In this document: positions 1,495 through 39,745 of the stretch, one piece after another
Layout of the letters: every line of letters begins with the position of its first letter
Position numbering within the stretch: position 1 is the first letter of the stretch
Assembly (NCBI GenBank): GCA_022825885.1
Contig: JAJDVY010000021.1
Coordinates: 1-64,000, forward strand
Length of the DNA stretch: 64,000 nt
From: Nitrospirales bacterium
Lineage (GTDB): Bacteria; Nitrospirota; Nitrospiria; Nitrospirales; UBA8639
Direction of reading: 5' to 3'
Program-made: the position numbers and the translations under genes
The notes under the pieces: generated by a model
Told to the model about the DNA's origin: nothing
Database searches by the model: none
Seen by the model: only the letters and a program-made list of their open reading frames with translations

Positions 1495-1586
1495 GATTCC
1501 TCCTCATGGACGGCAATAATGCCGCTCGGGAGCAGAAATGTCACTTATCCCCCTTGTTCAGATTTCCCAAGCCACCTCTATTGACT

Positions 1587-2079
1587 ATGACAAAAAGACA
1601 AGTTTTTTATAGTTTTCATTACAACCCGGATAGTTGGCGCGCATCACAAGTGCGCAACATAGGAGCTATTGAGGGCAACAACCCTGTTTCTGACAATGAA
1701 TGGGAAACAATTACAAAGGGAGGGGATAACGCGATTAAGCGATGGATAAATGACCAGATGAAATATAGGTCATGCACTGTTGTTCTTGTAGGAAGCAATA
1801 CCGCAAACAGAAAGTGGATCAATTATGAAATAGTCAAATCATGGGATGACGGCAAGGGTGTTGTTACATGGATTGAAAGATCAAGACGGCCATATATCTC
1901 AAAAAGGGGGAAGTCCTTTTAGTTACATAGGTTATGGCAATACTGGCAAAAAATTGTCCTCAATAGTCAAGTGCTACGATCCTCAAGGAAGCAACAGCAA
2001 AGACAGGTATGCTTGGATTTCAAAGCATCTATCTAATGCAGTAGAAGAAGCCATCCGTATACGAAATCAATGCAAATGA
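1587..2079 (+). pseudogene. TIR-like (DUF1863/MTH538-type) protein, frameshifted
   Basis: From ATG 1587 the protein reads MTKRQVFYSFHYNPDSW, then GDNAIKRWINDQMKYRSCTVVLVGSNTANRKWINYEI, which matches the layout of TIR-like DUF1863 proteins (a beta strand with FFSFHY, then KRWI, then VVLIG and RKWVNYEI). Near 1860-1868 the reading frame is lost. The expected continuation (HGLKDQDGHISQKGGSPFSYIGYG to AVEEAIRIRNQCK) is in the next frame and ends at 2079. A small deletion in the strand before HGLKD best explains this. There is no ribosome site, because the IS end abuts the start. Base composition is AT-richer than the core genes, which suggests transfer. Such proteins occur in defence contexts; function here is unproven and probably lost. 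Confidence 0.7.
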
Positions 2080-2155
2080 AGGAAGCTTTGTCGGCAGTAT
2101 ATGAGAAATCTCCGCAAAGATACATCGGGTACGTAGAGGAACTAGCCGGCAAAAC

Positions 2156-2268
2156 CATAGCGTCACCATAGCAAAAACATAGCAATTTCATAGCAAAAAT
2201 AGCAGAAGTATAGCAAGGCATAGCAATGGCATAGCAAATTCATAGCAAACATAGCATTTTCATAGCAA
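2156..2268. repeat. Helically phased array of eleven CATAGCAA-type repeats
   Basis: CATAG-type units start at 2156, 2167, 2178, 2189, 2198, 2209, 2219, 2230, 2241, 2250 and 2261, so spacing is 11, 11, 11, 9, 11, 10, 11, 11, 9 and 11 bases. Most units are CATAGCAA; the first is CATAGCGT, and there are TATAGCAA, AATAGCAG and CATAGCAT variants. An inverted copy (TTGCTATA) lies at about 2299-2306, inside a small inverted repeat (CCTGTCTT at 2283 with AAAACAGG at 2305-2312). Period and direct orientation resemble iterons or an operator array. The array sits in the 2080-2313 gap, which shows no coding potential. Confidence 0.75.
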
Positions 2269-2313
2269 AAACATCTTCTAAGCCTGTCTTACTATGTTTT
2301 GCTATAAAACAGG

Positions 2314-2540
2314 ATAACCCCACATCCGTTATTCAAAGGCAAAACCGCCTGCGAGGTGGCGGGAGATGCTGTTTTCGACCATTTTGCCGATGCCGGGAAA
2401 ATGGTCTACCTCGGCTCAGGGGGCCAGCGGGGAGTGCCTGACATGATGCTCCCCACCACGCCTGCTACCTGATCGCCAGGAACGGCGGTCCCCGCAAAGA
2501 GGAAATCTCCTTTAAAAACCCGCATTCATTTGAGTTAAGA
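2314..2540 (+). pseudogene. Fragment of a DinD-like (damage-inducible protein D) gene
   Basis: One frame gives PHPLFKGKTACEVAGDAV, then FDHFADAGKMVYLGSGGQRGVPDMML. A second frame continues HACYLIARNGGPRKEEISF. This is the order seen in DinD family proteins (ACE..G, DHF, KMV.LGS, DV.L.RYACYL, QNGDP). The N-terminus and the C-terminal half are missing, and the frame breaks near 2445-2455. In many genomes dinD-type genes lie inside type I restriction-modification operons, which fits the hsdR downstream. No start codon or ribosome site is apparent, so it is surely nonfunctional. Confidence 0.65.
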
Positions 2541-2595
2541 AGATGGCGTTTACTGCATGATTATTTGTTCAATAATTTGATCAAAATTGTTTTGT

Positions 2596-2619
2596 ATATT
2601 GAACAAAATTGTTCAATAT
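2596..2619. promoter_or_regulatory. Perfect 24-bp palindrome upstream of the DUF4143 ATPase gene
   Basis: ATATTGAACAA (2596-2606) and its exact reverse complement (2609-2619) are separated by AA. A further half-site, TTGTTCAATA, lies at 2565-2574. The palindrome ends 16 bases before the first likely ATG (2636) of the ATPase gene. A symmetric site at this distance is a good candidate operator for a dimeric regulator, possibly controlling the ATPase-hsdR-DUF45 unit. The regulator is unknown. Confidence 0.55.
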
Positions 2620-2635
2620 TATAAAGTCTCGGGAA

Positions 2636-3841
2636 ATGGCGAGAATGAAATTCATCAGACCGCAGGCAAGGGAGTTGGCGAAACGCCTGAAGGAACCCCG
2701 CCGGTTTATTCAGTCCATATCGGGATCACGGCAGGTGGGCAAGACGACCCTTGCCTTGCAAGTGGCCGAGCGTAATAACCTGCCCTATCATTTTGCCAGT
2801 GCGGATGAACCGACCTTGCGCGACGGTCACGGTTGGATTGTCCGTCAATGGATTGAGGCGCGACATCTAACGCGACGGTCAAAAAGAAAAGGGGCCTTGC
2901 TGATATTGGATGAAATTCAAAAAATTCCGCAATGGTCTTCAGTCGTCAAATCTCTTTGGGATGAGGACACGAGAAAAAAAACACCCGTCAAGGTGGTGTT
3001 GCTGGGTTCGGCTCCGCTGTTGATGGGGCGGGGCCTTGCGGAAAGTCTTGCCGGGCGTTTTGAAATCCTGCATTTGCCACATTGGAGTTTCTCTGAAATG
3101 AAACGGGCTTTTGGGTGGGATTTGGAACAATATCTTTTTTATGGCGCCTATCCCGGAGCGGCTCCCTTCATAAAGGAGCAGGCACGTTGGTCGGAATATA
3201 TAAAGAATTCCCTGATGGAAACAACGATTTCCCATGACGTCATCTTGCTTTCTCGGGTTGACAAACCCGCGTTGCTTCGTCGCCTGTTTGAACTCGGTTG
3301 CGCCTACTCGGGACAAATTCTTTCTTACAGAAAAATAGCCGGACAACTGCAAGACAAAGGAAACGTCACCACCTTGGCTCACTATCTTGATTTACTCGAG
3401 GGAACGGGAACGATTGCCGGACTGCAAAAGTATTCTGGCAGCATGGTGGCAAGTCGCCGGTCAATTCCTAAACTTCAAGTGTTTAATACCGCCTTGATAA
3501 CGGCACAATTCGGCATGGATTGGCATCATGAGATGGAAGATGGAAAAATGCCCGGACGGCTAGTGGAGTCCGCAGTGGGGGCGTATTTGCTTAATGCCAC
3601 TGTCGGCGAGGGGATGAACCTGTTTTATTGGCGCGAAAACAACCGTGAAGTGGATTTTGTCTTGCGCCAGGGAAAGAAAATTGTGGCAATTGAAGTGAAA
3701 AGCGGCAGAATCCCTTCTTCTTTTCCCGGCTTGGATGATTTTGTCAAAAGGTTTAATCCGACAAGGACTTTAATAGTCGGCGAGGGCGGTATTTCTCTGG
3801 AACGCTTTCTGTCAACACCCGTTGAATACTGGATACAATAA
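2636..3841 (+). CDS. AAA-type ATPase with C-terminal DUF4143
   Basis: The P-loop GSRQVGKTT lies at residues 30-38 and Walker B LLILDEIQ follows near residue 89. The C-terminal part ends with a nuclease-like fold segment (REVDFVL, then IVAIEVKSG), as usual for the AAA_14/DUF4143 family. The first ATG is at 2636; 2645 is an in-frame alternative. The stop codon is followed at once by the hsdR start (TAAATG), so the two are translationally linked. The cellular role of this family is not well established. Its place in a restriction operon suggests recruitment as an accessory gene. Confidence 0.85.
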   Translation: MARMKFIRPQARELAKRLKEPRRFIQSISGSRQVGKTTLALQVAERNNLPYHFASADEPTLRDGHGWIVRQWIEARHLTRRSKRKGALLILDEIQKIPQWSSVVKSLWDEDTRKKTPVKVVLLGSAPLLMGRGLAESLAGRFEILHLPHWSFSEMKRAFGWDLEQYLFYGAYPGAAPFIKEQARWSEYIKNSLMETTISHDVILLSRVDKPALLRRLFELGCAYSGQILSYRKIAGQLQDKGNVTTLAHYLDLLEGTGTIAGLQKYSGSMVASRRSIPKLQVFNTALITAQFGMDWHHEMEDGKMPGRLVESAVGAYLLNATVGEGMNLFYWRENNREVDFVLRQGKKIVAIEVKSGRIPSSFPGLDDFVKRFNPTRTLIVGEGGISLERFLSTPVEYWIQ

Positions 3842-6800
3842 ATGCGCGGTTTTCAATTCAGCGAAAAATACCTGTGCCAAATCCCCGCTCTCCAGGAACT
3901 GGTCAACCTCGGCTACGAGTACCTGACGCCGGAACAGGTTTTTCAGGCGAGGCGAAAGAAATTCGGCGACGTTTTGCTGGAAAACATCCTGAGCCGGCAG
4001 ATCAAGAAGATCAATCGCATCAATTACAAAGGCCGCGAGTACCGGTTCAGCGAAGAGAACGTCCAGTCCGCCATCCAGAAAATCAAGAACGTCCAATACG
4101 CCGGACTGCTGAAAACCAATGAGACGGTCTACGATCTGCTGACCCTCGGCACCGCGATGGAGCAGTCCATCGAGGGCGACACCAAGAGTTTCACCTTGAA
4201 CTACGTTGACTGGAGGGCTCCGACCAACAACGCGTTTCACGTGACTGCGGAGTTTCCCGTTGAGAGAACGCGCAGTACCGAAACCGCTCGCCCGGATATC
4301 GTCCTGTTCGTGAACGGCATTCCGTTTGTGGTGATTGAATGCAAATCTCCGGGCGAAAAAGTAGAAGCGGCCATCTCCCAGACTATCCGCAACCAGACCG
4401 AGGAGTATATTCCCCGGCTTTTCATCTATGCCCAATTGTTGCTGTCGATCAACAAAAACGACGCCCGATACGCCACGGTTGGAACGGAACAGAAATTCTG
4501 GAGTCTCTGGAGGGAAAAAGAGGACAGCGATCAGGACGTGGAGCAGGCCGTCCACGCGCCGCTTACAGAAGAAACGAAAAACGCCCTGTTCTCCGGCGAC
4601 TTCGCTTCCGCCCGCCGCTATTTCGACGAATTGGGAGACCGGCAGATCACGGAGCAGGACCGGGCCATCTACAGCCTCTGCCGGCCGGAAAGGCTGATGG
4701 AACTCTCCCGCCTGTTTACGCTTTTTGACGCGGGCAAAAAGAAAATTGCGCGCTACCAACAGTTTTTTGTGGTGCGCTCGGCTTTGCAGCGCGTCAAGGC
4801 GTTCGACAATGAGGGACGGCGAAAAGGCGGCATGATCTGGCATACGCAGGGCTCGGGAAAATCCCTGACCATGGTCTGGCTTGCGCGTCTTCTGGCCATG
4901 GATAGGGAGATCACCAATCCGCGCCTCATCATGGCAACGGACAGGAAAGACCTGGACCGGCAAACTGAAAAAGTTTTCAGGCAGTGCGGGATCGAGCCGG
5001 AGCGGGCGGCAACCGGACGGGAACTCCTCGAATTGATCAGGTCGAACACGCCCGTGGTGACGACCCTGGTGCATAAATTCGACAAGGCGTTGAATGCCGG
5101 TGGGATGAGTGATGACGACCCTAACGTTTTCGTGCTGGTCGATGAAAGCCACCGCACCCAGTTCGGGAACCTTTCGGCACGAATGCGTCAGATGCTGTCA
5201 AAGGCCTGCTACCTCGGGTTTACGGGCACCCCGCTTACCAATGAGCAGAAAAACAACTTTTTCAAATTCGGGGGATTGATCGAGCCCTCTTATTCCGTCC
5301 GCCAAGCCCTGGATGACGCGGCAATTGTACCGCTCCTGTACGAAGGACGTCACGTGGAGATGGAGCAGGACAAAGCCGCCGTTGACCTGTGGTTTGAACG
5401 ATACACGGCTGACCTTAGTGAAAAACAGAAAGCCGATCTGAAGAAAAAATATTCACGCGCGAATACACTCAACAAGGCGAAGAGGGTCGTCTATATGCGC
5501 GCCTTCGACATCAGCGAACATTATCGCGCGAACTGGCAAGACACGGGTTTCAAGGCGCAACTGGTTGCGCCGGACAAGGTCACAGCCATTCACTATCACC
5601 AGTTTATGAAAGAAATAGACGCTGTTTCTTCCGAAGTGGTGATCTCCCCGCCCGATATGCGAGAGGGCTTTCAAGAGGTTGATGAAGCGCCGAATTCCGA
5701 CGTTCGGATTTTCTGGGACAGGATGATGGACCGCTTTGGCTCGGACACCCAATACTCGGAAACCCTTATCAAGCGTTTCAAACACGCCGAAGAGCCTGAA
5801 ATCTTAATCGTGGTGGACAAACTTCTGACCGGCTTCGACGCACCGGTCAACAGCGTTCTCTATCTCTGCAGAAAACTGCGCGAGCACACGCTGCTCCAAG
5901 CCATTGCGCGCGTCAACCGGCTGCATGAAGGCAAGGATTTCGGTTACATCGTGGACTACGAAGGCATCCTCGGGGAACTGAACACGGCTTTGACGATGTA
6001 TGACGCGCTGGAAGGGTTTGAGGAAAAGGATCTGGAAGAAACACTGGTTTCCGTCAATGAACAGATCGACAAACTGCCGCAGAAGCACTCCCATCTTTGG
6101 GACGTGTTCAGGGAGGTCAAGAACCAGGCCGATGAAGAAGAGTATGAACGGCTTTTGGGCGATGATGAACGGAGAGACGACTTTTACAGGCTGCTTGCGG
6201 AATATGCCAAGTCCCTTGGTATCGCCCTTTCCTCCCACAAGTTTTTAACAGACACGGACGAGACAATCCTGCGGCAGTACCGGGAAGATTTGAAACGGCT
6301 TGAAAAACTGAGGCGGTCGGTGAAACTGCGCTATGCCGATATCGTTGATTACAGGGACCACGAACCGAAAATCAAAAAGCTCCTGGATACCCATATTCAA
6401 GCCAACAGGGTTACGCAAATCAACGAGCCGGAGAACATTTTTCACGGCCTCCCGACGGGCGAAAGCGGACCGGAAGTCGAGTACGGGAGCAAAACCGAAG
6501 CCTCACGGGCCGATCGCATCGCCCACCTGATGAAGCGCACCATCAGCGAAAAAATGGAGGAAGACCCGGCCTTTTACCAAAAGTTTTCAAACCTGATCCA
6601 ACAGGTCATTGACGAGTTCAGGGCAGAGCGGATCTCCGGCCTGGAATACCTGGATAAGGTTTCCAGGCTGAAAAAAGACTTCGACAGCCGGGGCAATGAG
6701 GACGTGCCCGAGAAACTGAGGCTCAACAGGGACGCCGCGGCGTTTTTCGGTGTCATTAAACCTGTTTTTGAAACCTGCGCGGCCGGTACGTGCGATGAGC

Positions 6801-7021
6801 ATTCGGCGGATACGGCTCTTGCCATCCACGACATTCTGCAACGTCACGGCAAAGTGCATTTCTGGGACGACCCGGATGCGCGAAACAGCGCCATTAACGA
6901 CATTGAGGACTACCTGTACGACGAAGTGAAAGCCAAAAGAGGCATTGATCTCGGCAACGAACAACTGGATGAGATTATCGAGCGGAGCATGAGGATTGCC
7001 CGCAACAGGATGTACGGATGA
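3842..7021 (+). CDS. hsdR: Type I restriction endonuclease subunit R
   Basis: This 1059-residue protein has the HsdR order. The N-terminal PD-(D/E)XK nuclease has D152 in RPDIVLF and E166-x-K168 in VIECKSP. The superfamily 2 translocase has motif I TQGSGKS near residue 335, motif II VDESHR near 426 and motif III GFTGTPL near 460. It continues to a helical C-terminal region and looks intact. It should cut DNA after ATP-driven translocation, but only in complex with HsdM and HsdS, neither of which is in the window. It is followed by a DUF45 gene with ATGA overlap, an arrangement common in type I loci. Confidence 0.92.
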   Translation: MRGFQFSEKYLCQIPALQELVNLGYEYLTPEQVFQARRKKFGDVLLENILSRQIKKINRINYKGREYRFSEENVQSAIQKIKNVQYAGLLKTNETVYDLLTLGTAMEQSIEGDTKSFTLNYVDWRAPTNNAFHVTAEFPVERTRSTETARPDIVLFVNGIPFVVIECKSPGEKVEAAISQTIRNQTEEYIPRLFIYAQLLLSINKNDARYATVGTEQKFWSLWREKEDSDQDVEQAVHAPLTEETKNALFSGDFASARRYFDELGDRQITEQDRAIYSLCRPERLMELSRLFTLFDAGKKKIARYQQFFVVRSALQRVKAFDNEGRRKGGMIWHTQGSGKSLTMVWLARLLAMDREITNPRLIMATDRKDLDRQTEKVFRQCGIEPERAATGRELLELIRSNTPVVTTLVHKFDKALNAGGMSDDDPNVFVLVDESHRTQFGNLSARMRQMLSKACYLGFTGTPLTNEQKNNFFKFGGLIEPSYSVRQALDDAAIVPLLYEGRHVEMEQDKAAVDLWFERYTADLSEKQKADLKKKYSRANTLNKAKRVVYMRAFDISEHYRANWQDTGFKAQLVAPDKVTAIHYHQFMKEIDAVSSEVVISPPDMREGFQEVDEAPNSDVRIFWDRMMDRFGSDTQYSETLIKRFKHAEEPEILIVVDKLLTGFDAPVNSVLYLCRKLREHTLLQAIARVNRLHEGKDFGYIVDYEGILGELNTALTMYDALEGFEEKDLEETLVSVNEQIDKLPQKHSHLWDVFREVKNQADEEEYERLLGDDERRDDFYRLLAEYAKSLGIALSSHKFLTDTDETILRQYREDLKRLEKLRRSVKLRYADIVDYRDHEPKIKKLLDTHIQANRVTQINEPENIFHGLPTGESGPEVEYGSKTEASRADRIAHLMKRTISEKMEEDPAFYQKFSNLIQQVIDEFRAERISGLEYLDKVSRLKKDFDSRGNEDVPEKLRLNRDAAAFFGVIKPVFETCAAGTCDEHSADTALAIHDILQRHGKVHFWDDPDARNSAINDIEDYLYDEVKAKRGIDLGNEQLDEIIERSMRIARNRMYG

Positions 7022-39235: not shown

Positions 39236-39401
39236 GGGGAACGCAAAAGTGTAGCAGCGGGTTAGCGCGAATGTCCACCGGAAACGCCTGACGATCAGGA
39301 GCCAGCCGGGCTTTCTTTGCTGTGGCTCGAGACGCGTTGTGCCGTGTGTCCGTCCTTGACGTTTGGCAACGCTTTCTATTTTTGTAAAGTTTTCGATAAA
39401 T

Positions 39402-39462
39402 TGTACAATATGTACAATTTGTAAAGTTTTGTACATATTTTACGTTTTGTACATTTTGTACA
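39402..39462. repeat. Array of five TGTACA palindromes in an AT-rich stretch
   Basis: TGTACA occurs at 39402, 39411, 39430, 39448 and 39457, mostly within TTGTACAAT or TTTTGTACA. Spacings are 9, 19, 18 and 9, multiples or near-multiples of 9. It sits about 170 bases upstream of the FIST gene start and could be an operator array. Confidence 0.6.
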
Positions 39463-39479
39463 ATATATAATATTTGTTA

Positions 39480-39745
39480 CATTTTGTAATATTCAAGGAT
39501 CCAGTGTCTTTATTCTTCACGGACGAAGTAAAAAGCAACGACCCTGGATCCCCGATCGGGGTCGGGGATGACGGAAGAAAGGATTGAGGATGACAGAGAG
39601 AGACAACGAATCCTGTCAACGCCTGCCCTGAGTGTCCTGAGCGGAGCCGAAGGAAGTGGAGCGAAGGGAATGACTGAACACAGACAGGAATGACAGAAAG
39701 AAAGGGTGAGGATGACAGGAAAGGCAGCCGTGACCGTTACTGTCG
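39480..39745. repeat. Cluster of dispersed short repeats between FIST and GNAT genes
   Basis: ATCCCCGA and TCGGGGAT form an inverted repeat inside 39542-39574 (CCCTGGATCCCCGA, then TCGGGGATGACGG), related to 33274-33307. TGTCCTGAGCGGAGCCGAAGGA-type sequence lies at 39633-39654, as in the LON-domain gene at 51091. GAATGACAG and GGATGACAG motifs recur. No gene is seen. Confidence 0.6.

Follow-up and report, generated by a model that had tools for sequence, protein, structure and literature searches.

What is a run of eleven short, closely spaced repeats doing in a gap between two broken genes? The question is raised by a 64,000-nucleotide stretch of DNA from a Nitrospirales bacterium (the window), near one end of which the repeats lie. 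An earlier note, made from the letters alone, had offered two answers, namely an iteron set of a lost plasmid or phage and an operator of a defence regulator, and had supposed that a protein could bind the array along one face of the helix.

The window array and its surroundings

A pattern scan confirms that the array is real and runs in one direction: eleven units of the CATAGCAA type, 7 of them exact, have their ATAGC cores on the + strand and span 105 bp (starts at 2157, 2168, 2179, 2190, 2199, 2210, 2220, 2231, 2242, 2251 and 2262). The near-constant 11-base period described earlier stands insofar as the spacing is roughly helical, but individual steps are of 9, 10 or 11 bp (11, 11, 11, 9, 11, 10, 11, 11, 9, 11) with a mean of 10.50 bp. 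Likewise, the inverted copy described to the right of the array is present, but is the second of two (Table 1). Clusters of this size are not seen in a chance model, in which the biggest ATAGC cluster among 60 Markov-1 sequences of 64 kb contained 2 units against 11 in the window. The bare number of matches to CATAGCAA with at most one mismatch in the window is at chance level (29 against a chance mean of 27.4), and what is unusual about the units is their clustering and phase, not their mere number. An Rfam scan of window positions 1500-4000 gave no match. A reading of the units as an array of extended -10 promoter elements, judged by the familiar -10 consensus, was rejected, in that in-phase variants mostly alter the fourth base (A to C, 31 of 53) and so break the -10-like TAT.

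Table 1. Position of the array and adjoining features in the window.
Feature	Position	Strand	
ThsB-type TIR gene, frameshifted, left neighbour	1567..2079	+	
Array of 11 units of the CATAGCAA type, averaging 10.5 bp per step	2156..2268	+	
Two inverted units (CATAGTAA, TATAGCAA), 10 bp apart, right of array	2289-2296 and 2299-2306	-	
dinD fragment, right neighbour, ends approximate	2311..2520	+	
AAA/DUF4143 ATPase gene	2609..3841	+	
hsdR, type I restriction	3842..7021	+	

Both neighbours are broken, as had been recognised from the sequence: upstream lies a ThsB-type TIR gene with a frameshift, downstream a fragment of dinD. Orthologous arrays in two relatives, G001 (locus L251) and G005 (L257), sit within a dinD-hsdR stretch with pieces of dinD on both sides, whereas the window has a dinD piece downstream only. 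In both relatives hsdR is the first gene model beyond the array, which lies 376 bp (L251) and 179 bp (L257) upstream of it; unlike in the window, no DUF4143 ATPase gene lies between. The three orthologues comprise 11, 7 and 11 units with conserved array ends. Further features of the window include frames at 356-1494, beside the TIR gene, which we take to be those of an IS3-like transposase, TTGAACAA-type repeats at 2565-2618 ahead of the DUF4143 ATPase gene, and an AT-rich cluster of TTGTACAA/TTTGTAAA repeats at 39381-39493 which may be another operator array.

A dispersed family of arrays in helical phase

The window array is one of a family. In its own genome (2.38 Mb in 50 contigs) a two-unit pattern gave 65 matches against 0 for a reversed-pattern control and, once the matches had been fetched with their flanks, at least 14 arrays of four or more units were recognised, that of the window included (L241, of two units, is not counted). 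Across the 41 genomes searched, three-unit arrays occur in 8 of 14 genomes of the genus, a little-known Nitrospira-like one, and in 0 of 27 outside it. The two-unit pattern is matched in 11 of the 14, with 1 to 82 matches each where present, the sole match in G002 being an isolated pair. A binding role had been called unlikely should the array be absent from all relatives or lack fixed neighbours; that outcome was not reached, as arrays hold the same loci across several relatives and species.

The genes beside the arrays are varied. Scanned against Pfam, the gene models closest to the other 13 arrays of this genome gave, among others, AIR carboxylase (purE), a NuoF type, ThiC, a cyclophilin, an exonuclease-family protein, arginine decarboxylase, a peroxidase, a small multidrug transporter, a glycosyltransferase, DUF1015 and a sigma-54 activator, while five gene models scanned alone beside an array had no Pfam match. 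The gene labels lpxC, rhomboid, nadA, RND, DHH and hflK are assigned by recognition of the translations. Restriction genes lie near 3 of the 14 arrays, namely hsdR in the window, a SmaI-type endonuclease gene (L228) and HsdM-HsdS genes (L239); for the other 11 the nearest genes are different ones or have no assignment. At L239 (own genome, C45, 5658-10998) hsdM and hsdS are followed by a Dsr2/SIR2-like gene, and this hsdM/hsdS pair and the hsdR of the window, each by an array, may form one split type I system.

According to a simple coding model, arrays are found between convergent genes (L230/L246, L232), between tandem genes and between divergent ones (purE with nuoF). A pure promoter-operator role does not fit those arrays that sit between convergent gene ends. 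Flanking sequence is in part common to arrays that are not orthologous: L228, L231 and L233 agree over 76-77 bp at 79-90%, L240 and L252 have 67 bp of common flank at 88%, and short right ends are also common among arrays. Several non-orthologous arrays thus have longer common flanks, and the family has therefore also spread by copying. Array direction agrees with GC skew in 8 of 14 own-genome arrays and in 17 of 20 in relatives, the latter being a non-independent set.

Outside six records assigned to the group, the three-unit pattern was found at 112 loci or more. Among the matches listed, 53 have a 6- or 12-bp step, 46 have fewer than five units, 6 keep a single 10- or 11-bp step, 5 show a 10/11 mixture and 2 are of other kinds; the corresponding numbers for 46 viral loci are 8, 25, 1, 12 and 0. 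Several viral contigs (L141, L148, L149, L154, L156 and L168) carry other, ATAGCAAAC-type arrays with 11-12 bp steps, that of L168 possibly being coding.

Helical phase is a property of the family as a whole. The best period over 35 arrays and 354 units is 10.45 bp, and it is 10.46 bp in a set of 20 arrays (211 units) in which one array was kept per orthologous group to avoid counting orthologues twice. Within these 20 arrays successive steps are anticorrelated (r = -0.385, n=127, 0 of 5000 permutations), and the coherence of pair distances above 50 bp is 0.75, compared with a mean of 0.577 when steps are drawn independently; only 15 of 1000 such draws attained 0.75. A short step tends to precede a long one, and therefore it is phase that is kept and not merely unit length; the units keep to the same side of the B-DNA helix. 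Of 69 in-phase places at which a unit seems to be missing, 41 agree with the unit in 6 or more of its 8 bases, the changes falling mostly at bases 4 and 5. The arrays reach up to 16 units.

The units are better conserved than their surroundings. Over five hand-picked locus sets (24 loci), identity is 0.863 in units (3571/4137), 0.610 in spacers (1641/2688) and 0.673 in flanks (10417/15483), with 1182 unit columns gapped and with a unit defined as ATAGC in either sequence, which favours units somewhat. The difference persists in the weakest set (L258, L244, L229), at 0.634 for units against 0.467 for spacers, while the flanks of the purE set reach 0.795. The spacers are A-rich and diverse, with 66 distinct sequences among 162, and an A-tract of four is present in only 64 of the 162 intervals. 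That a protein could bind one helix face, as was first proposed, is supported by the 10.46-bp period, the phase correction and the conservation of units.

WHX as candidate partner of the arrays

The most likely binder is WHX, a 139-residue protein encoded outside the window (G000:C31:670-1089) with an N-terminal helix and a C-terminal domain resembling HARE-HTH. HARE-HTH (PF05066) matches all eight intact WHX proteins at E <= 0.1 (best 4.7e-5), the reference protein scoring 19.8 bits over residues 69-136, below the Pfam cut-off of 25.9; its AlphaFold model is poor (pLDDT 45.8). In the genus WHX has matches in 9 of 14 genomes, being intact in 8 and reduced in G010 to a remnant of 43-45 residues. 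In all 8 genomes with intact WHX (L278 being one such locus) an array lies upstream of the gene, approximately 40-70 bp from its start. The gene following WHX is thiC. A search of 295 genomes of the phylum found matches in 10, comprising six genus genomes with intact WHX, the G010 remnant and three genomes of other genera; the genome of the best homologue outside the genus (G196) contains no array. Among viral contigs, 58 stretches matched a pattern, none of which was confirmed as a WHX relative.

Intact WHX is present in exactly the 8 of 14 genus genomes that have three-unit arrays and is absent or broken in the other 6. Identical sets of eight genomes would arise by chance in 1 of 3003 cases if kinship is disregarded. 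Genomes without an intact WHX have few arrays or none. In G010, for example, the WHX remnant contains a stop and lies about 1.1 kb upstream of thiC (L286, about 1500-1635), and the genome has no match to the two-unit pattern. G001, on the other hand, has WHX yet few arrays (9 matches to the two-unit pattern).

A tree built from atpD and purE places seven WHX genomes on one side (support 100) and groups G006, which possesses WHX and arrays, with the WHX-less G004, G007 and G011 (supports 82, 85 and 67). Repeated loss of WHX together with its arrays is the simpler reading, regain of both in G006 being possible. The absence of WHX from G004 and G007 may represent one loss event, because the region upstream of thiC is common to both (90.6% over 1010 bp), and the co-occurrence of WHX and arrays rests on few independent events; other genes may also have the same presence pattern as WHX. 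A further caveat on the co-occurrence is that one genome, G008, is 90% complete and in 190 contigs.

The remnants of arrays point in two directions. At purE in the WHX-less G004, CATAGC is found in 1 of 7 ATAGC units, compared with 54 of 80 in seven WHX genomes (nominal Fisher p 0.009, the units being non-independent). At the exonuclease locus of G011, also WHX-less, a phased array is retained with 7 CATAGC, 2 TATAGC and 4 CATCGC units; this array shows less decay than would be expected, which is evidence against a close tie between WHX and arrays.

The family is real, functional-looking and chromosome-wide, with a good candidate binder, and the window array would be one of its protein-docking sites. 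Each unit (CATAGCA, tolerating CAT[A/C][G/A]CA) would constitute one site and, as units share direction and B-DNA pitch, a protein could assemble head to tail along one helix face. That WHX is this protein, coating arrays chromosome-wide and controlling its own gene, is the reading preferred here, with a probability of roughly 0.55. WHX would oligomerise and probably coats the arrays cooperatively, probably represses its own gene via the array upstream of its start and, elsewhere, may mark or organise chromosomal DNA and affect adjoining promoters where any exist. A bolder version, offered only tentatively, sees a chromosomal counterpart of the plasmid StbA system, in which a free-standing winged-helix protein would polymerise on about 15 phased arrays, organising or positioning the chromosome, and arrays would decay after loss of the protein. 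If true, the chromosome would be marked in an uncommon manner for a bacterium, by scattered arrays of as many as 16 directional sites that keep phase and whose small candidate partner is lost alongside them. A single protein with a single array would then suffice to ask whether StbA-like assemblies act on chromosomes, and the six genus genomes without intact WHX are natural controls. Among the titles and abstract openings listed in literature searches, none describes these arrays, most subscription papers being outside reach.

Competing readings and known systems

Phase and unit conservation call for a binder, not for WHX specifically, and the arrays could instead be bound by another protein, such as a response regulator acting on direct repeats about one turn apart, with WHX being only a target gene. 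The weak HARE-HTH match of WHX and the many other genes that adjoin arrays would suit this view, which is nevertheless doubtful given that WHX is absent or broken in all six genus genomes without three-unit arrays and that its gene has an array in 8 of 8 genomes. Alternatively, the arrays may be dispersed selfish or miniature mobile elements recognised by a putative recombinase or transposase, with no host function. Flanks common beyond the units, positions between convergent genes and the range of 0 to 82 pattern matches per genome are compatible with such elements, but the same loci are kept in several species, no clean empty site is seen at purE and phase is held while the diverse spacers change, making this reading improbable.

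The two origins suggested in the earlier note fare worse. An operator of adjoining restriction or defence genes, within a regulon including defence loci, would explain the position upstream of hsdR in L251 and L257, the three arrays near restriction genes and, at the window itself, the ThsB-type TIR gene and candidate-defence ATPase on either side. As a general role it is not borne out by the remaining eleven arrays, with their other or unassigned nearest genes, nor by those between convergent gene ends, where there is no promoter to control; for the window array itself it is conceivable but very unlikely. Still less probable is intrinsically curved DNA from phased A-tracts for nucleoid packing, since a helical period and A-rich spacers are what it would predict but four-A tracts occupy only 64 of the 162 intervals and it is the CAT..CA core that is kept. 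Neutral tandem slippage, as in a minisatellite, would account for the differing unit numbers at the dinD locus and for a run of identical 11-bp copies in G006; it is disfavoured by steps which correct each other's phase, units which outlive spacers and the dispersal of the family, and merits very little credence. Equally little attaches to iterons of a lost plasmid or prophage. The closest match among plasmid records is itself a plasmid array, but iterons adjoin a replication initiator gene, and no replication protein was found among the four window proteins scanned near the array; moreover, at least 14 arrays are dispersed over the genome, a search of a phage collection with the window array gave no match, and WHX had none in the plasmid and phage collections. 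The iteron proposal is disfavoured by this dispersal.

Repeats of the REPIN/MITE type are short, dispersed and intergenic. The arrays resemble them in these respects and in their common flanks, and differ in the lack of a clean insertion site at purE and in the helical phase that they keep.

Plasmids provide closer parallels. Against 72,556 plasmid records, the window array found matches in 71 conjugative plasmids, their identity ranging from 80-90% (88% across some 50 bp among the matches listed, 8 of the 71). One examined plasmid, typed IncI2, has seven helically phased CATAGC units between mobC and a StbA-like gene, upstream of the latter, which is followed by stbB. Its unit and phase are those of the chromosomal arrays, although coincidence is possible. 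Upstream of nine stbA-type plasmid genes (L338-L346), repeated 6-mers occur at 11, 22 or 33 bp in 7, the exceptions being Pantoea, at 12 and 31, and Erwinia, at none; a StbB-annotated gene follows stbA in 6 of the 9. The repeat units differ between these loci, a possible protein-unit code.

StbA of R388 (IncW) binds direct repeats of 9 bp (stbDR), set 2 bp apart, about the promoter of the operon that encodes it, two to three copies being present in three other promoters; the plasmid requires StbA for its stability and placement (PMC3098194). StbA-like proteins also occur in R721 and in IncI2-type plasmids, and an StbA domain has been solved (7pc1). WHX is comparable as a small protein with direct repeats about one turn apart upstream of its own gene (8 of 8 loci, 10.46 bp). 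However, StbA is plasmid-borne with stbB downstream, whereas WHX is chromosomal with thiC downstream, and the arrays of the WHX genus are spread over the genome and also lie between convergent genes. As the two proteins align only weakly, over the helix-turn-helix (BLASTP E 0.018; hhalign probability 3.4%, E 0.013, 36 columns), WHX may be said to work like StbA, not to be one.

A similar layout is described for KfrA of RA3 (IncU), a helical DNA-binding autoregulator whose operator comprises five 9-bp repeats at its own promoter, running in two directions and with a motif not found elsewhere in RA3 (PMC7783346). In KfrA the HTH lies close to the N-terminus (residues 29-52) and a long coiled coil comes after it, whereas the HTH match of WHX is C-terminal, at residues 69-136 of 139. 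The R388 and RA3 cases are both plasmid-borne (PMC3098194, PMC7783346). BldC of Streptomyces is a small winged-helix protein whose subunits line up head to tail along direct repeats, the number of which varies (PMC5859096); it is MerR-like, with 9-bp sites and two to four subunits at the sites described, compared with up to 16 units here (PMC5859096). BldC and KfrA may be regarded as further analogues, with the plasmid repeats bound by StbA as the closest known arrays.
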